From Rhodopirellula sp. SM50 (GTDB lineage Bacteria; Planctomycetota; Planctomycetia; Pirellulales; Pirellulaceae): a stretch of DNA of 64,000 nt. Below the pieces are notes generated by a model. That model was not told the origin of the DNA. It searched no databases and saw nothing but the letters and a program-made list of their open reading frames with translations. The stretch covers positions 62,001-126,000 of the forward strand of contig NZ_NTFY01000062.1 in assembly GCF_002289565.1 (NCBI RefSeq), written 5' to 3'. The position numbers and the translations under genes were made by a program. This document shows, piece after piece, positions 1 through 63,230 of this stretch. The first letter of the stretch is position 1, and each line of letters opens with the position of its first letter.

Positions 1-557
1 CGGCTCTCGCGATGGATCGAGTCGTCTTGACGGAGTTCCAATTCGATGGGCACCAGTTGTCTGGATTCCGGATCGTACCAGGGGGTGGAATCCAGCGACT
101 CGGTCACGCTCGCGTCCACCTCGATCGTCGTGGACGAGTTCGCAGCGTCACCGGTTTGCACCAGTGTGATGGCGAGGTCACGTTGTTCGTTTGGCATCAG
201 CCGGTTCGCGCCAGCGTCCGGGCCAGTCCCCAGATCCGACTCAACCGATCGACTCACCGGTGCAACGCCGGCGTTGGCGACATGCCCGGTCAGCGACGGA
301 GGCACCGCCATTGCCAAAGCGATCGCGAGCAGTCCCACCACGATTCCCGCCCGCTTCAGCTGCAACCGGTACCGCAACGCTGTGAAGCATTTATTTCCTG
401 TGTTTGACGAGGCTTTAGCGGCAGGGCGCAAGCCCTCCGGTTCGTCATCTTTACCAAAACACCGGAGGGCTCGCGCCCTACCGCTAAAAAAGGCTTCACT
501 GCGTTGCCGGTGACGCCGACCGTCTGCTGACGTTGGACTGAATTGATTGCGTCCCAT
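1..557 (-). CDS. membrane-anchored protein, last gene of RDD/SpoIIM operon, C-terminus off the left edge
   Basis: An open frame without stop runs from an ATG at 557 to the left edge (185 codons). The ATG overlaps the stop of the upstream gene as TGATG, which argues for translational coupling and for this start. Residues 1-69 are basic and of low complexity, one hydrophobic segment lies at about 70-86 (AGIVVGLLAIALAMAVPP), and the rest is probably extracytoplasmic. The N-terminal tail contains a dispersed palindromic repeat read in frame (residues about 21-49), and residues about 110-122 come from half of a second dispersed repeat. In related loci RDD and SpoIIM genes are followed by DUF4129, DUF4350, MoxR and DUF58 genes, so a DUF4129-like membrane protein is a reasonable guess. 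The visible part shows no decisive motif. Reading frame well supported, function not. Confidence 0.75.
   Translation of the reverse strand, partial: MGRNQFSPTSADGRRHRQRSEAFFSGRARALRCFGKDDEPEGLRPAAKASSNTGNKCFTALRYRLQLKRAGIVVGLLAIALAMAVPPSLTGHVANAGVAPVSRSVESDLGTGPDAGANRLMPNEQRDLAITLVQTGDAANSSTTIEVDASVTESLDSTPWYDPESRQLVPIELELRQDDSIHRES
197..224. repeat. half of a dispersed hairpin repeat inside a coding region
   Basis: The segment matches one arm of the repeat seen complete at 5996-6068 and 21719-21798 (tcagccggttcgcgccagcg followed by tccgggcc). Here it lies within the left-edge gene and is read as roughly GTGPDAGANRLMP. Confidence 0.75.
411..495. repeat. dispersed palindromic repeat in frame within the left-edge gene
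   Basis: The arms at 416-441 and 461-486 form a long hairpin (tagcggcagggcgc...ccctccggt against accggaggg...gcgccctaccgcta). The same arms occur in the four tandem copies at 62845-63230. In the minus-strand gene the element contributes about 29 residues without a stop or frameshift. Confidence 0.85.
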
Positions 558-1555
558 CACGGTGCCTCTCCGATTGCAGGAGCGGTGTCGAGCGGAATCG
601 GCGGCGGGACCGATTCGACCGGCCGCTGTGACGCAACTTTCGGCACGCCGGTTTCTTCGCCGAATTGACGCAAGGCCTCGGCCCGCACGGCCAGTTCGAC
701 GTCCCAACCCTCCAGCCGGATGCGTGTGTCCAGATAGGCGATCATGCGTACCACCACGCTCAACCCGCCGACCACCCAAAGGGCCAGCGGGTAAAGCACC
801 AACAGTGTCACCAGGCCAAAATTCCAATAGCCGGTGGCGATCCCACGCACCCAAACCAAACTATAAAACAGTCCGGCAAAGATGATGGTCAGCGTCGTGG
901 CGACCGCGATCCAGCGGCTGCCGACGTCGCTACCGGCGGGCCGATGCAAGGCGCGTGCGCGGCGGCCGAGCGTGATCTCGTTGGGATTCTTGCTTCGCAG
1001 CGGACACATCTCCAACAAAATCATCTCCGGCAGAAACGGCCGCCCGGCACGAACCACCAGGGCGACGAAAAAAATGATGATGGGAAGCGTGATGTCCAGG
1101 AACGTGTCGTAGGGCTGGAACAACCGCAAAGCGACCAGGATCATCACCGGGATTGCCAAGCGGCGAATCCCCAAGCAATAAAACCAACGCCAGAATTGTT
1201 GCCGTGAGATCTTCAGCGCGCTGCGCCAACTGGGCTTTTGCTCGAACACCGCTTGGCCCAAATAGATTGTCGTGACGACTCCCGCCGCCGGTGTCTGCAA
1301 AAACACCAGCAACGCCATCCAGGTCCCGTAGCGGATCAGTTCCCAAGTCGCCTCGGAATCATCCAAGCCATATTGGGCTTCGGTCAAGGGAATCCAAGAC
1401 AGCAGCAGCGCGTTGGCAACCATCCAAGGCCAGGCGCCCAACAAGAACCCGATCAACAGCATCGACGGGTAGCGGTGCAACAGCACAAGCGCCAAGTCGC
1501 CGATTTCCGTCAACGTTCGGACCCTGACGGCCACGTGGGTTTGATCAAGTTGCAT
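557..1555 (-). CDS. integral membrane protein of unknown function (RDD/SpoIIM operon)
   Basis: The 332-residue protein has about five or six hydrophobic segments (for example PSMLLIGFLLGAWPWMVANA, TLPIIIFFVALVV, TLTIIFAGLFYSLVWV, LVTLLVLYPLALWVVGGL) and a proline-rich cytoplasmic C-terminus. I chose the ATG at 1555 because AAGGAG lies six bases upstream of it; a GTG at 1582 is an alternative. The start overlaps the end of the SpoIIM-like gene by 11 bases, and its stop overlaps the next ATG (TGATG), so it sits in the middle of a coupled operon. No family was recognised. Co-occurrence with RDD and SpoIIM proteins suggests a shared membrane complex, which is inference. Confidence 0.85.
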   Translation of the reverse strand: MQLDQTHVAVRVRTLTEIGDLALVLLHRYPSMLLIGFLLGAWPWMVANALLLSWIPLTEAQYGLDDSEATWELIRYGTWMALLVFLQTPAAGVVTTIYLGQAVFEQKPSWRSALKISRQQFWRWFYCLGIRRLAIPVMILVALRLFQPYDTFLDITLPIIIFFVALVVRAGRPFLPEMILLEMCPLRSKNPNEITLGRRARALHRPAGSDVGSRWIAVATTLTIIFAGLFYSLVWVRGIATGYWNFGLVTLLVLYPLALWVVGGLSVVVRMIAYLDTRIRLEGWDVELAVRAEALRQFGEETGVPKVASQRPVESVPPPIPLDTAPAIGEAP

Positions 1556-2621
1556 CGCGGTCTCCTTCGTCAGCGGGGACACGCGAATCCACCAAATCCG
1601 CGTAGCGCGCCGTCCGCACCAACGATCCCCGCTCGCTTTCGTTTCGGGGGAATCCGAGCACGACGAAATACAGCGTGATCATGCCGCTGGAAAAAATCGA
1701 CCACGCCACCTTGATCAAATAGGGCGCCCCGCTGGGTGACAGAAAACCTTCGGTGAACGCTGCCAAAACAAACATCGTCGCGCTGGCCGCCATGACCGGC
1801 ACCGCGTCTCGTCCGGATTGGCGGACCGAGTCGACACGCGACATCCCGCGGGTGTAGAACAGCCCCATGCCCAATCGCAATCCCGCGCCGGCCGACAACG
1901 CGATCGCCGTCAGTTCAAACGGACCATGCGCGGTCACAAATTCGAAGAAATGATCGGCGCCTTCGATCCCGTCACGTGACATGTATCCGAAGGTTGCGCC
2001 CAGGACGATGGCGTTGTAGGCGAGTGTGACCAGACACGGAATCAACAGAATGCCATAGGCAAAACACTGCAGCCCGATCCCGGTGTTGTGGCGGATGTAG
2101 AACGCCGCCCGCGCGGTGTATTCTTCGGGACGCACCGCCAGCGGTTCTTTGAACGACTCCGCCGTCCCCTCCAACATCTTCGTGCCGCAGATCCGCTCGG
2201 CGAATCCCGGAAACTGTGCTTCACTGGCGCCCATCACCATCGAGAGCGCGAACAGTCCAAAGAAAACCAGCGTGGCGACGCGGACGCAGCCGTCGTTGAA
2301 GATCCGCTGCGGCGCTTCCTGAAATAAGATGCGAATCCAACCGCCGGGGGCCGGGGTATGGGTGCGATAAAGCTGGTTGTGCGCGCGGGCGACCAACCGG
2401 TGCAGGTAGGTGACCGTGTTGGGCGGCAGTTGGTAGGCATCGGCAAGCGCCAGATCCGCACAGGCCGCCCGATACAGCGAAGAAAACCGTGCCACGCCCG
2501 ACGCCCCACGGTGTTGGGGGCTGACCGAATCCGTGCTGCCACGCAATTCCATCGCCTCGCACAAACGCTCCAGCTCCGTCCAATCGACGCGACGTTTTTC
2601 TAACAGTTTGGCGACATTCAC
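1545..2621 (-). CDS. SpoIIM-like (stage II sporulation protein M family) membrane protein
   Basis: The protein has 358 residues. A soluble N-terminal helical part (VNVAKLLEKRRVDWTELERL, then RFSSLYRAACADLALA) is followed by the multi-pass region typical of SpoIIM-related proteins: a segment near RVATLVFFGLFALSMVMGAS, the FYIRHNTGIGLQCFAYGILL core, a GPFELTAIALSAGAGLRLG helix and a final hydrophobic pair. The GTG at 2621 shares GTGA with the stop of the RDD gene, so I preferred it to the longer frame starting with TTG at 2723. In non-sporulating bacteria such proteins accompany RDD, MoxR and DUF58 genes; their biochemical role is not settled. Confidence 0.88.
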   Translation of the reverse strand: MNVAKLLEKRRVDWTELERLCEAMELRGSTDSVSPQHRGASGVARFSSLYRAACADLALADAYQLPPNTVTYLHRLVARAHNQLYRTHTPAPGGWIRILFQEAPQRIFNDGCVRVATLVFFGLFALSMVMGASEAQFPGFAERICGTKMLEGTAESFKEPLAVRPEEYTARAAFYIRHNTGIGLQCFAYGILLIPCLVTLAYNAIVLGATFGYMSRDGIEGADHFFEFVTAHGPFELTAIALSAGAGLRLGMGLFYTRGMSRVDSVRQSGRDAVPVMAASATMFVLAAFTEGFLSPSGAPYLIKVAWSIFSSGMITLYFVVLGFPRNESERGSLVRTARYADLVDSRVPADEGDRDAT

Positions 2622-4092: not shown

Positions 4093-4171
4093 TGAATGGC
4101 CAATCCAACATCAAATTCGGAGTTGTATCCCAAACAATTCAAGCAACCCTCTCCGGCCGCTGAAACGGCCG

Positions 4172-4357
4172 ACTCTCCCAGGGGATATCGATTTTATAAG
4201 TGACGGGTTTGATCGTAGCGGAAGGCGCCAAGACTTTTACAGCGCGGGCCCTCTCTGGCGTATGCTTGCTGCGCAAACGCCGTCTCTCCCAGAGGGAGAG
4301 AATCTACATGGGTTGCCAAAAGCTGCTCTTATGCAATCGATATCCCGAGGGGAGAGT
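4172..4357. repeat. MITE-like element, family 1 copy A
   Basis: The copy of about 185 bp is bounded by imperfect terminal inverted repeats (ctctcccaggggatatcgat at the left; the right end, reversed, reads ctctcccctcgggatatcgat). The core with ggaaggcgccaagac, cttgctgcgcaaacgccg and ctctcccagagggagagaat recurs in inverted orientation at 15498-15679. No transposase lies nearby. Confidence 0.75.
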
Positions 4358-5995: not shown

Positions 5996-6150
5996 GGGGC
6001 CCGGACGCTGGCGCGAACCGGCTGATATCAAACGAATATCAGCCGTTTGGCGCGAGCCTACGGGCCCCAGTCCTGGGCAAGCCGCGTTAACTTAGCGGTA
6101 TTGGGCTTTAGCCGCCCACAATCGCTGCGTCGCAGCGATTGTGGGCGGCT
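5996..6150. repeat. composite hairpin repeats between convergent genes (possible bidirectional terminator)
   Basis: The first element (5996-6068) is a palindrome built on ggcgcgaaccggctgatatc and gatatcagccgtttggcgcg-like arms. The second (about 6071-6150) contains cgttaacttagcggtattgg and a near-perfect 41-bp palindrome ending the block (agccgcccacaatcgctgcg mirrored). Copies of both parts recur at 21675-21868. The location between two convergent stop codons fits transcription termination, although no T tract is visible. Confidence 0.75.
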
Positions 6151-6155
6151 AATGG

Positions 6156-7796
6156 CTATTCGTCCAGAAACACGTGGTCGGGTTGAACGGACTTGTACCA
6201 TTCGCGCCATTTTCGTTGCGCCGTTCGGACCTCGGCATTGGTCGGTTCATCGGGCATGCCGAAGCCTTCGAATTTTCGGCTGATAAAGCGTAATCCGTCG
6301 CGAGCGTAGGCGCGGACAATCTGATCGGGATCGCTCAGCGCAAAGATCAACGCGGGGGCGACGCGCAATTCGTCGCTGGCTCCGAGCACCTTGGCCGAAA
6401 CACGTCGGGCCTGCCACGATCGGCTGCCGCGGAGAAGACGAGAAAGTCGCTCCAGTTGCGCCGTTCGCTCCACCGGGTCGGTCGGCAATTTTGCGTTGTC
6501 GATCATCGCTTTCCCGTCCAGCTCGTCGGCATTGTCGCTCTCGAGCAGTTCCAGCATGTTGGACACCGATTGGGCCGGCACCGGAGAAACCGCTTGGCCG
6601 TTCTGCATCCTCGCACCGCTGACATCTTCACCAAACCCGAAACCACCGATCGTCGAGGCACTGGCGCCGGCACCGAGCGACTTTTTGGTGCTTCGGATCA
6701 GGAACAAGATCGCAAAGCAGGTGTTGCCCGGTCCGAAGATGTGTTGCGTTTCGCCCCAGCCACCCTCGGGCTTCTGCGACCGCCTCAGTTCACCTACGAT
6801 TCGGTTGTACCAATCGGGTTCCGACTCGATCGGCAACCCCCGTGCGATGTCGAGGAAACTGCGATAACGCTCGGTGGTGTAGCAGGTGTAGTAGTAGTAA
6901 CGGTCGTTGACGTGATCCGGAGTCGGGTTGGCTCTGAGCCAATTCTCCATGCGGCCGATCGCGCCGAAGATGGCGTCTTTCTTGACCCGAGCGTTGTTGG
7001 CCTTGCGCGCCGTGTTTTCATCATCGCGAAGCACCTTGACCGCTTTGGGTAACCCCACGATCCCGGCTTCCTCGGCGGTTTTGCTGGATCCCCACATGCC
7101 CATCACGTCCCCGGCGATCAACAGCGTCGCCCCGGCGGCGAGCGACATGCCTTCGGTGATCCGCTCCTGCTGGATCAAGCGACCTCCGGAGGGGATTTCG
7201 CCCTGGTAAGGCCACGCGCCGCGGATATCTTGGACCTTGAAGAACCACTCCATCGTGCGTTGCAGGCGACTGTAGTCGACCTTGTAACCGAGTCGGTCGA
7301 GCGTCCACAGCGCCAAGATCACGTATTGGGTTTGCGACGTGTCGCCCTTCTTCTCTTGCGGATAGGTGTAGGATCCGTGTTCGGGCTGGACCTCGTCAAA
7401 GTAACGCAACAGCGTCGTGAGTTCACTACGATATTGGTCCGGATCGACTTCACAAAACAGCAACGCCGACACCGCCGCGTGGTAGTTGGATTTAAACTCC
7501 TGGCTCCGAGAAACGATGCCGACAAACTTTTTCGCCTGCGCGAGCCCCTCTTGCACCACCGGATTGGTCGGATCTGGTGCCGCTTTCATGATCGTGTAAG
7601 CCGCCAGAACCAGCTCGCCTTCATCGGTGAACTTGGTCGATTCCAGGTATCCGATCGCCCGGCTCACCATTTGCTGCACCGCCGGATCCTCCGGCTTGAT
7701 GGCCTGGGCGGTCGGACTGACGACGAGTTGCAGGGAGACGGCCAACAAGCCGCCCAGGAGGACGAAACGATTCTGGCGTTGCATCAGAGAGACCAT
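6156..7796 (-). CDS. secreted prenyltransferase/squalene-oxidase-repeat protein with C-terminal HEAT-like part
   Basis: With the ATG at 7796 the protein has 546 residues; an ATG at 7784 is equally possible. A signal peptide ends near VVSPTAQA. The middle carries repeated helices of the alpha-alpha toroid type (VSRAIGYLESTKFTDEGELV, QTQYVILALWTLDRLGYKVD, RRSQKPEGGWGETQHIFGPG), as in squalene-hopene cyclase and prenyltransferase relatives. There is no DxDD or similar terpenoid-cyclase acid motif, so enzymatic activity is doubtful. The last 110 residues (SWQARRVSAKVLGASDELRV, PDQIVRAYARDGLRFI) look like HEAT-type repeats. Such exported toroid proteins are abundant in planctomycetes; the function is unknown. 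No operon partner is visible. Confidence 0.85.
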   Translation of the reverse strand: MVSLMQRQNRFVLLGGLLAVSLQLVVSPTAQAIKPEDPAVQQMVSRAIGYLESTKFTDEGELVLAAYTIMKAAPDPTNPVVQEGLAQAKKFVGIVSRSQEFKSNYHAAVSALLFCEVDPDQYRSELTTLLRYFDEVQPEHGSYTYPQEKKGDTSQTQYVILALWTLDRLGYKVDYSRLQRTMEWFFKVQDIRGAWPYQGEIPSGGRLIQQERITEGMSLAAGATLLIAGDVMGMWGSSKTAEEAGIVGLPKAVKVLRDDENTARKANNARVKKDAIFGAIGRMENWLRANPTPDHVNDRYYYYTCYTTERYRSFLDIARGLPIESEPDWYNRIVGELRRSQKPEGGWGETQHIFGPGNTCFAILFLIRSTKKSLGAGASASTIGGFGFGEDVSGARMQNGQAVSPVPAQSVSNMLELLESDNADELDGKAMIDNAKLPTDPVERTAQLERLSRLLRGSRSWQARRVSAKVLGASDELRVAPALIFALSDPDQIVRAYARDGLRFISRKFEGFGMPDEPTNAEVRTAQRKWREWYKSVQPDHVFLDE

Positions 7797-8066
7797 GCTG
7801 ACGTCGGGGAAAAGGCTGTCGCGGGCCGCAAGAGAGGGGGCCGGCACTGGATCGATCAAGTATAGCACAACGGCTGGAAAGTGGCGATTGTGGGGTTGTG
7901 CCCCCCGCACGGCCTTTAGACCTCTGTCCCAATTGAATTTGAGGGTTGCGTTGATCGAGCGTTAAAAAGTGGGCAATCCGTTCTCCCGAAGGGAGAAAAA
8001 CGCGTCGCCGGAGGGAAACGCAATACCGCTAAGCACTGAGCGGAATAGAAGTGTCGGATCTCTTGA

Positions 8067-8331
8067 AGTGGGATAGGCTTCCAGCCTGTCATCCCAGTGG
8101 GATAGGCTTCCAGCCTGTCATCCCAGTGGGATAGGCTTCCAGCCTGTCATCCCAGTGGGATAGGCTTCCAGCCCGTCATCCCAGTGGGATAGGCTTCCAG
8201 CCCGTCATCCCAGTGGGATAGGCTTCCAGCCCGTCATCCCAGTGGGATAGGCTTCCAGCCTGTCATCCCAGTGGGATAGGCTTCCAGCCTGTCATTTCAG
8301 CATCGACAGGCTGGAAGCCTATCCCACTTAT
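8067..8331. repeat. eight-copy 29-bp tandem array closed by an inverted copy
   Basis: The unit cagtgggataggcttccagc plus cYgtcatcc repeats every 29 bp (unit positions 8072, 8101, 8130, 8159, 8188, 8217, 8246, 8275) with only a C/T change in the middle copies. It ends with the reverse complement gacaggctggaagcctatcc at about 8306. A single inverted copy is at 49240-49262. No spacers separate the units. The rest of the gap 7797-8066 shows no gene; it has an aataccgctaag fragment near 8030. Confidence 0.95.
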
Positions 8332-8364
8332 TTTCCAGCTTACTCCTTCACTGCCAAAGTCTCG

Positions 8365-11536: not shown

Positions 11537-12625
11537 TCACTCGGCGTCCTGTCGCGACAGGAACAAGACGGCGCGCTCGTAATCGTCGACTCGTTTCGCA
11601 ACGGTGAACTCCGCACTGACTCGAACTTGCGCAGCCCGCCCCATAGTCTCTCGCAACGCAGCGTCCCCCGCAAGCCGATCGATGGCGGCCTGCCACTGCG
11701 ACAGATCTCGCACCAAAAACCCTTCCCGTCCGTCTTCGACCAGGGTCCGATTGAAACCGACGTCCGACGCCACCGTCGGCAGCCCGCTGGCCATGTACTG
11801 AATCATCTTGGCGTTGCATTTATACGTCGACCATTCGTGGTCCTCGGGTAATGGCATGATTCCGACATCGAGCTGTCTCAGTTCCGCCGCCACGTTGCAT
11901 CGATCGATGTCGATCCAACGCAGCAGGTCTTTCGTTCCCGCGTCCATGCTTTGGTGTGCCGCCCGCGCAGTAATGATATGAAACCTCAACGGCTTTTGTT
12001 CGGCGAGTTTCTCGATGGCCGGCAGGATTGTCTTGAGCAGTGCGACGTTGCCCGCCGATCCGACCCAGCCGATCTTGACAATCCCCGTCTCAGCGGCGGC
12101 CGAGCCCGCCGACACGCGCTGCTCCGATTCCCACTTCGACGCGTAATCACGCTCATCGACGCAGGTCGGAATGATCGAAACCGACGGATTGTGCGGTCGG
12201 ATCCAATCCGCGATCGCCTCGTTTCCGGCGATGACGTGATCGCACATCGCCGCAATCCTCTTGATTTTCTCGGGAAACAACAGAAACACGGCGTCGTCGA
12301 TGTCGTAGACCAGCCGCCTGGCCGCCCTGCGCAGTTCATGCTCCAGCACGTCATCATCCGAGTGAACGGCGCCGGTTTCGAGGATCACACTGTCAAACGA
12401 ACCGTTGGCGATGCGTCGAATTTGCCATCGACGAATCGCGTACTTCAGCGATTGACTGACTCGCCATCCCAATAGCGGCCAATGCTCATAACGGTTTGGG
12501 ATGCAGGGATAGCGACGAACATGATGCCCGCGTTCTTCCAAACGGCTCAACAGCGGCGTGCGGAAAATGACCGAGGGGACCCCCGAACCACCATTGAAGT
12601 ACGCGATTCGAGCTCGTTCGCTCAT
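11537..12625 (-). CDS. glycosyltransferase (GT4-like)
   Basis: The protein has 362 residues. The ATG at 12625 forms ATGA with the stop of the preceding glycosyltransferase gene. The sequence starts with the Rossmann strand ARIAYFNGGSGVPSVIFRTP, has an N-terminal half with RLVYDIDDAVFLLFPEKIKR, and a C-terminal GT-B half with KIGWVGSAGNVALLKTILPA, LDVGIMPLPEDHEWSTYKCN and MASGLPTVASDVGFN, the donor-binding region. The sugar donor cannot be told. Surface polysaccharide synthesis is inferred from the operon. Confidence 0.88.
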   Translation of the reverse strand: MSERARIAYFNGGSGVPSVIFRTPLLSRLEERGHHVRRYPCIPNRYEHWPLLGWRVSQSLKYAIRRWQIRRIANGSFDSVILETGAVHSDDDVLEHELRRAARRLVYDIDDAVFLLFPEKIKRIAAMCDHVIAGNEAIADWIRPHNPSVSIIPTCVDERDYASKWESEQRVSAGSAAAETGIVKIGWVGSAGNVALLKTILPAIEKLAEQKPLRFHIITARAAHQSMDAGTKDLLRWIDIDRCNVAAELRQLDVGIMPLPEDHEWSTYKCNAKMIQYMASGLPTVASDVGFNRTLVEDGREGFLVRDLSQWQAAIDRLAGDAALRETMGRAAQVRVSAEFTVAKRVDDYERAVLFLSRQDAE

Positions 12626-13785: not shown

Positions 13786-14680
13786 CGGCGGGTTCAATCG
13801 GCGGTGTGTTCTGGTTCGCTCCGTCGCGGTCCCAGGACTGATGCAGTCGCTGCAAGGCGAGTTGATAATCGGATTGGCGGAGTGCTTCACCGGCTTTCAG
13901 CGCCGCTTCCGTTTTCGACAACGTCCCCAGCCCCAATTTGGCTTTCAGCTTGTTGATGAACTGACGAATCGGGCTGGTGTCGCGGAACGGATCGTGCGCG
14001 ATCGTCTCGCGCGTCAACAGATGATGCGCCACGCCGTCGGTGTAGAACGCGGCACCAAAATGATCCGCGACGTATTGCAATGACTGTTGCGTATAGAACG
14101 ACACGTGTTGGCCCGTTTCAGGCAAAAAGTACCACCACTGATCCGCCGAAGTCGGCGTCGGATCGGGGACCAAGATTGTTGAAAAGAGGAGCGACCTTCC
14201 CCGACCAAGCAATTCGTCAAAGACCGTCATCGGATCCTCGAGGTGCTCAAAGACTTCCCAGGCCGTGATGCAATCGAACGTTTCTTCGCTGGGTGTGTCC
14301 GCCAAGTCCACCTCAAACCCTTTGGCAAACAGACATTCGCAATAGGCGTCGGTGTGCTGGAACGGGAACCCGCGATCACGCATCATTCGGGTGAACACGC
14401 CATAGCCACCACCATAGTCGAGCAGACGTCGTCGGTCGGGACAAATTCGACGCAACACCTCGCAAGCCAGTTCGACCTTCTCGGCATTGCGTTGCAACAA
14501 GCCGATGTCCAGATCCGCGATCACCTGCTGGTAGGCTTCGTCAAGCCAGTACGGCGGCTCGGTTTGAATGAACCCGGTCTGATCACAACGAGAGTAGACG
14601 ACGTCGTATTGTCCCAAGACCTTCGCCGAAAATAACGGTGAACAGGGACCGCCAGTCAATCGACTTTTCGAGGGGCTCAC
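13778..14680 (-). CDS. class I SAM-dependent methyltransferase
   Basis: The protein has 300 residues. The GTG at 14680 forms GTGA with the stop of the preceding short gene. Motif I is RRLLDYGGGYGVFTRMM (about residues 83-99), and the later ITAWEVFEHLEDPMTVFDEL fits the methyltransferase-23 type. About 60 C-terminal residues after the fold (QFINKLKAKLGLGTLSKTEA onward) form a helical tail ending in a polar stretch. In this operon it may methylate a sugar or cap a growing glycan, a known way of controlling chain length with Wzt-type exporters; that role is inference. Confidence 0.88.
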   Translation of the reverse strand: MSPSKSRLTGGPCSPLFSAKVLGQYDVVYSRCDQTGFIQTEPPYWLDEAYQQVIADLDIGLLQRNAEKVELACEVLRRICPDRRRLLDYGGGYGVFTRMMRDRGFPFQHTDAYCECLFAKGFEVDLADTPSEETFDCITAWEVFEHLEDPMTVFDELLGRGRSLLFSTILVPDPTPTSADQWWYFLPETGQHVSFYTQQSLQYVADHFGAAFYTDGVAHHLLTRETIAHDPFRDTSPIRQFINKLKAKLGLGTLSKTEAALKAGEALRQSDYQLALQRLHQSWDRDGANQNTPPIEPADG

Positions 14681-15497: not shown

Positions 15498-15679
15498 GGT
15501 CCCTCTGGAGGTCGATTCTATTGCTGCAGAATTTGGCAACCGATTGAGATTCTCTCCCTCTGGGAGAGACGGCGTTTGCGCAGCAAGCAAACGCCAGAGA
15601 GGGTCGGCGTTGCAAACGTCTTGGCGCCTTCCCCGACGGTCAAATCCGTCACTTCTACGATTGACGTCCCCTGGGAGGG
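15498..15679. repeat. MITE-like element, family 1 copy B (inverted relative to copy A)
   Basis: The reverse complement aligns over nearly its whole length to 4172-4357, including ggaaggcgccaagac, gcttgctgcgcaaacgccgt and ctctcccagagggagagaat. Its ends are cccaggggac at one side and ccctctggagg at the other. Confidence 0.75.
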
Positions 15680-15689
15680 TCACGGAGGA

Positions 15690-19745: not shown

Positions 19746-20363
19746 TCAATCGCGGACTTTGCGCACCAACCGCATCTCGTTGGGCCCGATGAACATCAAC
19801 AGCAGCGCGCCATTGGCGGCGTAGCGATCGAAGACATCTTCGTGGAATTGGTCTTCGCCCGGCCAGGGATAGGAATAAACGAGCGCAAAATCGTCCAAGT
19901 CCAATTCCCACGCTTGGTACGCCGATTCGCCGGCGTGCCCCAGGGACGGCAAGGTCGGGTCGAAGGAGAGATCCGCGGCCCCGGGCGGCAGAAAGTTGCC
20001 TTCAAACAAATCCACCTTGGCCGGCCAACTCGCGATCGTCTTCCGCGCCTGGGCAATCAAATCCACATGGGCTTCGATCGCGTGGGAATTCCAGCCCAGT
20101 GCATCGGCCAAACAGGCCACGGCGGCAAATCCACAGCCCCACTCCAGAAATCGGCTCCCGATCAGCGGCTGGTGTTGGCGAACCCAGTCGAGCGTCTGGT
20201 AGACCAATTCGTAGTCCGCCGCGACGAACTGCTCGGCACGATGCTGATCCCAGCAATCTTGAAACGCTTCGATCCGCGCACGCATCGACGACAGTTGTGC
20301 GGCGACAGAGGACGGAATCGGTTGCGTGTCGACCTGGGACGGAATCTCGATGGGGTGCAACAT
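19746..20363 (-). CDS. methyltransferase-like protein
   Basis: The protein has 205 residues. A Rossmann-type motif I is seen as SRFLEWGCGFAAVACLADAL (about residues 70-89), with an acidic residue after the next strand (HAIEAHVDLIAQARKT). The later part has LVYSYPWPGEDQFHEDVFDR and the final strand ALLLMFIGP. This layout fits a class I SAM-binding protein, but no methyl-acceptor motif is clear. Convergent with ispF at 34 bases distance. Confidence 0.78.
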   Translation of the reverse strand: MLHPIEIPSQVDTQPIPSSVAAQLSSMRARIEAFQDCWDQHRAEQFVAADYELVYQTLDWVRQHQPLIGSRFLEWGCGFAAVACLADALGWNSHAIEAHVDLIAQARKTIASWPAKVDLFEGNFLPPGAADLSFDPTLPSLGHAGESAYQAWELDLDDFALVYSYPWPGEDQFHEDVFDRYAANGALLLMFIGPNEMRLVRKVRD

Positions 20364-20444
20364 CGCGGTACTATAGCCCGATTCGCCAGGGAGTTCACCG
20401 ATGGGAACGATCGAGCGATGAAACGATTACTGGGCCCACGGATA

Positions 20445-20500
20445 GCAGCGCGAACCCACGGATCTTTTGCACCCGGTCATCCGTGGGTTCGCGCTGCCAT
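20445..20500. repeat. hairpin repeat gcgcgaacccacggat
   Basis: The arms gcagcgcgaacccacggat and atccgtgggttcgcgctgc enclose a short loop. Diverged pieces of the same text occur at about 27640-27715. Confidence 0.75.
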
Positions 20501-21674: not shown

Positions 21675-21868
21675 CAGGCTTCAGCCCAATACCGCCAAGT
21701 TAAGCGTGGTTTCCTCAGGTCGGGGCCCGTAGGCTCGCGCCAAACGGCTGATAAACGATTGATATCAGCCGGTTCGCGCCAGCGTCCGGGCCTCCCCGTC
21801 GAGCTTAACTTAGCGGTATTGGGCTTCAGCCGCCCCGGCTCGCTGCTCCGCAGCGACCCGCCGAGAAT
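21675..21868. repeat. composite dispersed repeat (same parts as 5996-6150)
   Basis: The block contains cccaataccgccaagttaag, then a hairpin from gtaggctcgcgccaaacggc to gccggttcgcgccagcgtcc, then cttaacttagcggtattggg and a gcagcgagccgg-like palindrome. Order and orientation match a mirrored version of the 5996-6150 block. Confidence 0.8.
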
Positions 21869-50637: not shown

Positions 50638-51076
50638 CCGGCGTGGTGACCGACAATGCGGCGGCACGTTCATCGAAATGCACGTGGCTGACGGTGATCG
50701 CTGCCGAACCGGGTTGGCTCACACAGGCCTCCTCTTGGAATCCGATGCTGATCAGATCGCCGCCGCTCGCCTCAACCGGCTCTGCAGTGAACAAGAACGC
50801 GGTGATCGTCCCGGCATCCTGATCGATATTGACGGACATGGAGACTCTCCCGTTCCAAAACTCGCCCGGTTCGACGGTCCATGCTTCGGCGCGGACCACG
50901 GTGGGGTCGTATTCGATTCGGATTTCCGCGGCGCGGATGTCATGGGCGTTTTCAACGCGTAGCGGCAAACGAAGCTCGCGCGCCGATTCGTCGAACGATT
51001 GCGTGACGGAAACGGTTGCCAACAATCGCCTGGATTCCAACCGCTCCGCGGCAAGCCTGCGTGTCTGAACTGCCAT
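50492..51076 (-). CDS. secreted cohesin-like domain protein
   Basis: The protein has 194 residues from the ATG at 51076. The N-terminus MAVQTRRLAAERLESRRLLA bears the LExRxLLA signature. Residues about 25-150 form a cohesin-type sandwich: LRLPLRVENAHDIRAAEIRI, EYDPTVVRAEAWTVEPGEFW, and DQDAGTITAFLFTAEPVEAS. The last 50 residues are proline-rich. Its 3' end overlaps the AraC gene on the other strand by 146 bases. Together with the next gene it suggests a scaffold-type role. Confidence 0.85.
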   Translation of the reverse strand: MAVQTRRLAAERLESRRLLATVSVTQSFDESARELRLPLRVENAHDIRAAEIRIEYDPTVVRAEAWTVEPGEFWNGRVSMSVNIDQDAGTITAFLFTAEPVEASGGDLISIGFQEEACVSQPGSAAITVSHVHFDERAAALSVTTPVTAPVDRQPVPQPLSELAGPASRRVHHTIDPPMGPLRPDRVDVLMSGW

Positions 51077-51251
51077 CCTGGTACCACTGATCGAGAAGCG
51101 TGGCGTCCCGCCACGGTGCGCCACGATCTGTGCTGTACCGATTGTCGGCCCCATCGAACAAGACCAACCGATGGAGGTTGGTGAAGTGCGCGAGCCATTT
51201 GGACGATTGAGCAAGCCGCAATGCCGATGGTGCCGCTTCCCCGCCGGCCGC

Positions 51252-62844: not shown

Positions 62845-63230
62845 TGTTAGCGGTAGGGCGCGAGCCCTCCGTTTTTTCACGGTATTTTTGAAGCGCGACC
62901 GGACGGCTCGCGCCGTTCCGCTAACACCTTCAAGTTTCTTGTTAGCGGTAGGGCGCGAGCCCTCCGGTCTTTCACGGTATTTTTGAAGCGCGACCGGACG
63001 GCTCGCGCCGTTCCGCTGACACCTTCAAGTTTCTTGCTAGCGGTAGGGCGCGAGCCCTCCGGTTTTTCACGGTATTTTTGAAGCGCGACCGGACGGCTCG
63101 CGCCGTTCCGCTAACACCTTCAAGTTTCTTGCTAGCGGTAGGGCGCGAGCCCTCCGGTCTTTCACGGTATTTTTGAAGCGCGACCGGACGGCTCGCGCCG
63201 TTCCGCTAACACCTTCAAGATGACACCGGG
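62845..63230. repeat. four tandem 95-bp hairpin units
   Basis: Units begin at 62850, 62945, 63040 and 63135 with gcggtagggcgcgagccctc and end with gctcgcgccgttccgc before the spacer accttcaagtttcttg. The two halves of each unit pair into a long stem. One diverged copy of the arms is at 411-495. The stretch between 62793 and 63246 has no gene. Confidence 0.95.

Follow-up and report, generated by a model that had tools for sequence, protein, structure and literature searches.

Palindromic repeats lying in frame within a DUF4129-domain gene of a planctomycete

The Rickettsia palindromic elements (RPE) are said to have been described by Ogata et al. in 2000 and 2002. In the available portions of PMC10969869 and PMC2229807, palindromes lying in frame within genes are established for the RPE and for the ERIC, Correia and Yersinia elements; REPs inside genes are recorded for Opitutus terrae, Thauera and others in the available portion of PMC3733652, and in-gene tandem repeats are covered by that of PMC6749651. 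In-frame insertion of palindromes is already known, and the case presented here is unusually well documented by comparison between species. Our literature search found no report of such insertions for Planctomycetota, but absence from print is not claimed, since PMC3733652, as far as it was accessible, includes Rhodopirellula baltica, of the same phylum and with several REP families, among its REP-bearing genomes, and its list of intragenic REPs was outside our reach.

The window, i.e. the whole stretch of DNA that was analysed, comprises 64,000 nucleotides of the marine bacterium Rhodopirellula sp. SM50 (the source genome, G000), a 9.8-Mb draft whose relatives belong to Stieleria (S. neptunia Enr13x, G001; S. 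maiorica Mal15, G002; S. sedimenti ICT_E10.1, G003; TBK1r, G012). The minus-strand frame that the earlier note had described as open from 557 to the edge is free of stop codons, and the full gene was traced beyond the left edge (Table 1). Its ATG at 557-555 shares one base with the stop codon of the upstream gene (TGATG). Pfam places DUF4129 at residues 317-377 of the focal protein (E 4.7e-6), hydrophobic 19-residue windows start at 65-73, 76 and 217-232, and the prediction for the protein is an N-terminal segment resembling a signal peptide, followed by a single membrane segment. The two repeats were initially assigned to a cytoplasmic tail and to the linker after a membrane helix. This placement had to be corrected: element A precedes the N-terminal hydrophobic segment, where the n-region of a signal peptide would be, and segment B lies between the two hydrophobic segments.

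Table 1. Features discussed in the text, in window positions.
Feature	Position	Strand	Basis
DUF4129-domain gene, 5' 557 nt	1..557	-	ORF reading and Pfam; 393 codons, 3' end 625 nt past the left window edge
Upstream gene, membrane-protein-like by eye	557..1582	-	its stop codon overlaps the focal gene start
Element A, ~134-nt palindromic MITE-like element, residues 17-62	374..507	-	inverted ends GCAACGC.GTGAAGC / GCTTCACAGCGTTGC around a GC-rich hairpin; relative without insert
Upstream target-site duplication copy, GTCACCG in gene orientation	508..514	-	comparison with relatives; statistics over 21 copies
Downstream target-site duplication copy, decayed: GGTACCG, 5/7	367..373	-	perfect GTCACCG in S. 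sedimenti
Segment B, one arm and loop of a 69-nt palindrome family, residues 112-124 (GPDAGANRLMPNE)	186..224	-	repeat match; absent in S. neptunia
Family B, full-length intergenic copy	5998..6066		repeat comparison, profile search
Family B, further intergenic copy	21719..21798		repeat comparison
Intergenic tandem array of the family-A hairpin core, 95-nt period, 4 units	62845..63230		repeat comparison

Element A behaves as a non-autonomous MITE. Of the full copies, 20 out of 21 measure 134 nt and one measures 135 nt, within the size range of MITEs (about 70-300 bp, no transposase gene). Terminal inverted repeats are present (GCAACGCTGTGAAGC / GCTTCACAGCGTTGC), and their sharing is partly a matter of selection, as the 21 full copies were chosen by both ends with at most three mismatches; copies found by similarity over the whole element show the ends too, and at least 7 of 25 are a subtype with other ends (CCCTACGCCGTGAAC). 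The arms form a 28-nt GC-rich pair, 93% complementary, and the folding energy is -84.5 kcal/mol (z -12). A target duplication, as in MITEs, is seen in the flanking 7-mers of the 21 full copies, whose identity is 0.82 against a permuted mean of 0.39 and a maximum of 0.53 (500 permutations); 16 of these copies are from the source genome, four from TBK1r and one from S. sedimenti, and several single copies agree poorly at their flanks. An element of 134 nt with a 7-nt duplication and one of 133 nt with 8 nt are indistinguishable, and the net gain is 141 nt, or 47 codons, in both. The hairpin repeat delimited at 411-495 in the earlier note is real but drawn too small (about 374-507 or 508, 134-135 nt), and the tandem array at the far end of the window was rightly assigned to the same family, having the same hairpin core as a subtype of its own period.

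At least 87 matches at E<=1e-3 were found in the same genome, with 40 of 702 first-look candidates scored, and a profile search yielded 77 copies, full or partial and not overlapping one another, in a genome sample of 1.22 Mb, about one eighth of the genome, including six small stretches picked because they hold matches. Chance is not a plausible source of the repeat matches of either element A or segment B. Rfam returned for the repeats only matches far below family gathering scores, to microRNA and sRNA look-alikes, which were taken as hairpin noise.

The likeness to the RPE, proposed at the outset, is largely right as an interpretation. Compared with the RPE by features, element A is likewise palindromic, of 100-150 nt and dispersed both intergenically and in frame in unrelated genes (PMC10969869 and PMC2229807, in the portions available); in-frame insertion into a gene whose relatives are without the insert was found, as for the RPE, in the focal gene and two more genes. 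It differs in belonging to another phylum, in showing terminal inverted repeats and a clear duplication of 7-8 nt at the target, and in that genes contain few of its copies: in the sample, 74 of 77 fall outside genes and three inside, according to a simple self-written codon-usage caller. This caller trimmed the start of the focal gene and so misplaced the focal copy, and one of the three inside copies (on contig C131) is doubtful. The intragenic MITEs ERIC (127 bp), Correia (107 bp) and Yersinia (168 bp) are similarly small and non-autonomous, with open frames fused to genes (PMC2229807, in part), whereas for element A orthologues provide an insert-free site and a net gain in codons, and the core is amplified in tandem and in frame in one species. 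With the GTAG/CGTC REPs (accessible part of PMC3733652) it may share a GTAG-tagged hairpin, a GTAG being visible beside the stem in the core and followed by a GC-rich palindrome. Unlike these REPs, it duplicates its target and ends in inverted repeats, and a RAYT as its mover found no support: none of the eight Y1_Tnp matches in the source genome had the A profile, the A core or the B arm within 1.5 kb. That two families have entered one gene, as first noticed, is borne out, but its newness is weaker, double REP insertions in single genes being known from Opitutus terrae and R. conorii in the same part of PMC3733652.

A transposase that would move element A was sought in the 1.22-Mb sample and in TBK1r and not found. 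The search of the 1.22-Mb sample for an autonomous relative gave two pairs of ends 0.25-4.5 kb apart with no transposase between either, and one pair spans a class II tRNA synthetase. In TBK1r, where exact ends only were searched, one pair of ends 4.4 kb apart has two transposase genes between them, one of the IS66 family and another of DDE type; we take these to be insertion sequences that jumped into an element copy, seen at L180:772-5241 as a copy split by about 4.3 kb with IS66-family transposase and DUF772/DDE transposase genes.

The comparison of orthologues from close relatives, which the earlier note had proposed, carries the main finding. The S. neptunia orthologue is without both segments. 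At A its net difference from the source genome is exactly 141 nt, and S. sedimenti likewise has +141 nt when aligned with S. neptunia; at B the corresponding figures are 81 nt for the source genome and 69 nt for S. sedimenti. The A insertion in S. sedimenti is the same one, with a perfect duplication on both sides, of which the source genome keeps 5/7 downstream. Among the 15 orthologous loci (L010-L024), the profiles of A and B give matches at E<=0.01 only in the source genome, S. sedimenti and TBK1r; ten more distant loci of the same genus (L014-L022, L024) and one of another genus (L023) are without A and B at this threshold. An insert-free site in a relative, a target duplication, an open frame and a conserved start are all observed at this locus.

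The TBK1r orthologue has a GTG start that overlaps the same upstream stop and an N-terminal stretch unlike that of the source genome. Here the ends of element A enclose seven tandem 90-nt cores, all open and in another phase, which adds 711 nt, a multiple of three, up to a conserved VPPS. In P0004, a protein from a metagenome, one core is present, at the site seen in TBK1r. No clear target duplication was seen at the flanks of the TBK1r insert. Since the right flank is about 32 nt nearer the hydrophobic segment and the phase differs, the insertion in this second clade (TBK1r and P0004) is, to judge from the sequences, probably independent of that in the source genome, though a shared insertion followed by rearrangement could also have led to it. 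A multiple-of-three array period was tried as proof of coding and rejected; the period of 90 in the TBK1r gene is no evidence for coding because other arrays have periods of 84, 94, 95, 96 and 108. Core arrays with 84- and 108-nt periods lie, apparently outside genes, at L177:1999-2721 and L179:1702-2499 of TBK1r, and the L177 array has the terminal repeats of the element at both outer ends, i.e. it is an element with an amplified inside. Two copies in S. neptunia (L182:3381-3513 and L186:2510-2644) lie directly before signal-peptide-like sequences, with the frame open through them.

Segment B matches positions 5998-6036 of the window at 37 of 39 nucleotides and is found by nhmmer at E 3.3e-7 against the 1.22-Mb sample when its own sequence is left out of the profile. 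A half repeat had been described at 197-224, with its family at 5996-6068 and 21719-21798; the repeat is real, but it extends over 186-224, i.e. 39 nt. About 30 distinct full copies of family B in the sample all measure 69 nt between conserved ends, and of 74 matches there 69 lie outside called genes, four inside and one, the focal segment, partly inside. No clear target duplication was found for this family: the best of 100 combinations of length and offset scored 0.38 against a permuted maximum of 0.31, with most copies counted on both strands. Segment B is common to the source genome, TBK1r (weak, E 0.0011), S. sedimenti (with a 12-nt deletion, E 0.0016) and P0003, and is absent from S. neptunia and P0004. 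The direction of change at B would be that of a gain.

The most plausible explanation, which we hold with good confidence, is that the MITE-like element A transposed into the gene, was kept and is read through, and that segment B is an older, truncated insertion. Element A would have transposed into the part of the gene that encodes the n-region of the signal-peptide-like N-terminus, with 7-8 bases of the target duplicated, presumably in the common ancestor of the source strain and S. sedimenti, and one clean insertion would add 141 nt, or 47 codons. The open frames per copy average 2.8 of six, against 1.1 in shuffles, with three in the focal copy; the mean is taken over 21 copies that are related and so do not amount to 21 independent observations. 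Because stops are absent on average from about half of the six frames in this family, insertions of A into genes often leave the frame open. Insertions in unstructured, non-catalytic stretches would be tolerated and kept. Translation would begin at the conserved start overlapping the upstream stop and continue through the insert, which sits ahead of the membrane-inserting segment and is probably neutral there. Segment B would go back to an earlier, truncated insertion from the other palindromic family, placed in the variable region that follows the N-terminal segment.

The translation of the insert and its neutrality are matters that we infer. All 15 orthologous loci, the focal one included and whether or not they carry an insert, have a start codon in the frame of the gene that overlaps the upstream stop, which puts element A inside the reading frame. 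The S. neptunia gene has no other in-frame ATG, GTG or TTG for 75 nt after the overlapping ATG, and the database protein P0005 (319 aa) of this species begins there, so the site was coding before the insertion. It is probable on these grounds that the ribosome would read through the insert from the overlapping start, with the insert becoming part of the protein; a start downstream of residue 60, which had been considered earlier, is unlikely given the overlap in all loci.

The alternative that survives best, albeit as rather improbable, is that a new start arose inside or just after the element following insertion, e.g. the TTG near its right end, which would make the element a 5' leader instead of protein. 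An in-frame TTG or GTG does occur at the right end or just after it in the source genome and S. sedimenti; possible in-frame starts within the element are the TTG at the right end in the source genome and an ATG in the first TBK1r unit. The Phycisphaera sp. RhM database protein P0003 appears to start with residues matching the inside of the element. Two further points tell against read-through as such: the codon-usage caller saw no coding signal for the N-terminal part and cut the focal gene at window position 197, and ribosomes would be hindered by a hairpin of such stability some 50 nt into the gene. N-terminal ORF extensions through such elements may be spurious, as the genes on C131 and C111 look to be and as the available part of PMC3733652 says of several species. 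The N-terminal case of A on C131 was dropped, the upstream sequence in S. sedimenti being unrelated and the copy probably lying upstream of the true start. Against a new start in the focal gene, the overlapping start is kept in all 15 loci, three of which have inserts, the frame is open from it through +141 nt, and +711 nt in TBK1r, and the stretch from start to insert is identical at 20 of 38 positions between P0004 and TBK1r.

Somewhat less probable still is that the element was kept as a regulatory RNA hairpin in the operon mRNA, where it would weaken or tune translational coupling to the DUF4129 gene, with the peptide as a by-product. The position of the very stable hairpin so close after a coupled start and the presence of the family in the same short stretch in two clades speak for such a role, whereas copies elsewhere lie in mid-gene stretches and intergenic DNA alike. 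The source genome and S. sedimenti share one insertion, and 12 of 15 loci have nothing there. The insert differs between these two genomes at 2 of 134 positions, which is no evidence for constraint because the flanks are equally low (2/50 and 1/120), compared with 53/780 in the last 780 nt of the gene. Over window positions 232-557 the N-terminal pieces differ from S. sedimenti at 5 of 304 nt against the 53 in the last 780, perhaps reflecting local recombination. That the coding stretch came first and the focal gene gave rise to the intergenic repeats has the repeat identity itself in its favour and nothing more, and is hardly credible in view of the insert-free site, the target duplication and the 12 of 15 orthologous loci without the element.

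The earlier note placed A and B in regions that look structurally tolerant, for which alignment columns and a poor structure model give limited support. The invariant columns of 12 aligned orthologues, four rows of which were cut at starts of our choosing, all begin at residue 155, past A and B. In the predicted model residues 1-67 and 85-148 have a pLDDT below 50 and no secondary structure, and they look as a tolerated stretch would; the model, built from 12 sequences, has a mean pLDDT of 49.6, inserts without homologues score low anyway, and it was used as weak support.

Insertions in frame are not confined to the focal gene. The gene at 6280-7909 of contig C125 carries an in-frame A (7208-7341) with a perfect duplication, and all six matching genomes (seven searched) are without the insert. 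This stretch also has AAAAGGTGTCCGACACCTTTTT, a near-palindrome in frame that occurs twice in S. neptunia and S. sedimenti, once in TBK1r and not in S. maiorica or genome G013. In the minus-strand gene at 50050-51310 of contig C57 a shorter A (51063-51161) lies between two GGGATCGC, a perfect duplication, and adds a net 102 nt or 34 codons from residue 50; this copy may represent a subfamily ending near element position 102. All seven genomes searched match the C57 gene only from residue 83-91 onward, and the insert is absent from the four N-terminal sides inspected (S. sedimenti, TBK1r, S. neptunia and S. maiorica).

Family B occurs twice in frame in a linker (20309-20377 and 20417-20487) of a polyketide-synthase-like gene at 16099-24244 of contig C104. 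The number of B copies in this linker is zero in S. neptunia, one each in S. sedimenti, TBK1r and G013, two in the source genome and six, at about 108-nt spacing, in S. maiorica; two further genomes searched had no match. The neighbouring synthase gene has two diverged in-frame B copies (12354-12422 and 13787-13850) beside carrier-protein domains. A TBK1r gene (L142:13189-15588) with Caa3_CtaG at residues 66-294 has two in-frame A cores, at residues 45-75 and from 304, one per domain edge; no orthologue, and hence no insert-free site, was found in five genomes searched. The doubt about start codons does not touch the C125, C104 and Caa3_CtaG cases because their inserts are internal, and it is lesser for the C57 gene because that insert begins at residue 50. 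Some genes bear names, FHA-like, acyl-CoA-dehydrogenase-like, DUF1549-like and glycosyltransferase-like, that are our own presumption, and Pfam gave no match for the FHA-like and acyl-CoA-dehydrogenase-like genes.

The protein-coding palindromes of Planctomycetota described here come with an insert-free site and a target duplication; a sister clade probably acquired its insertion in parallel, and the copy number of an in-frame element varies between species. One may speculate, more tentatively than for the focal insertion, that Stieleria holds several unrelated palindromic families made safe to insert by their length and open frames (47 codons for A; 69 nt, or 23 codons, for the B palindrome), and that the genus keeps making linkers and signal-peptide extensions from them, also by in-frame amplification (sevenfold in TBK1r, from zero to six copies in the polyketide-synthase linker). 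With its complete genomes and cultured strains, Stieleria could be used to measure how often mobile DNA becomes protein linkers, and with what effect on the protein. The window itself holds a further dispersed repeat family, seen as an inverted pair of 181 nt at 4171-4351 and 15501-15681 (83% complementary), and a tandem array at 8038-8356 with about 11 units of 29 nt.
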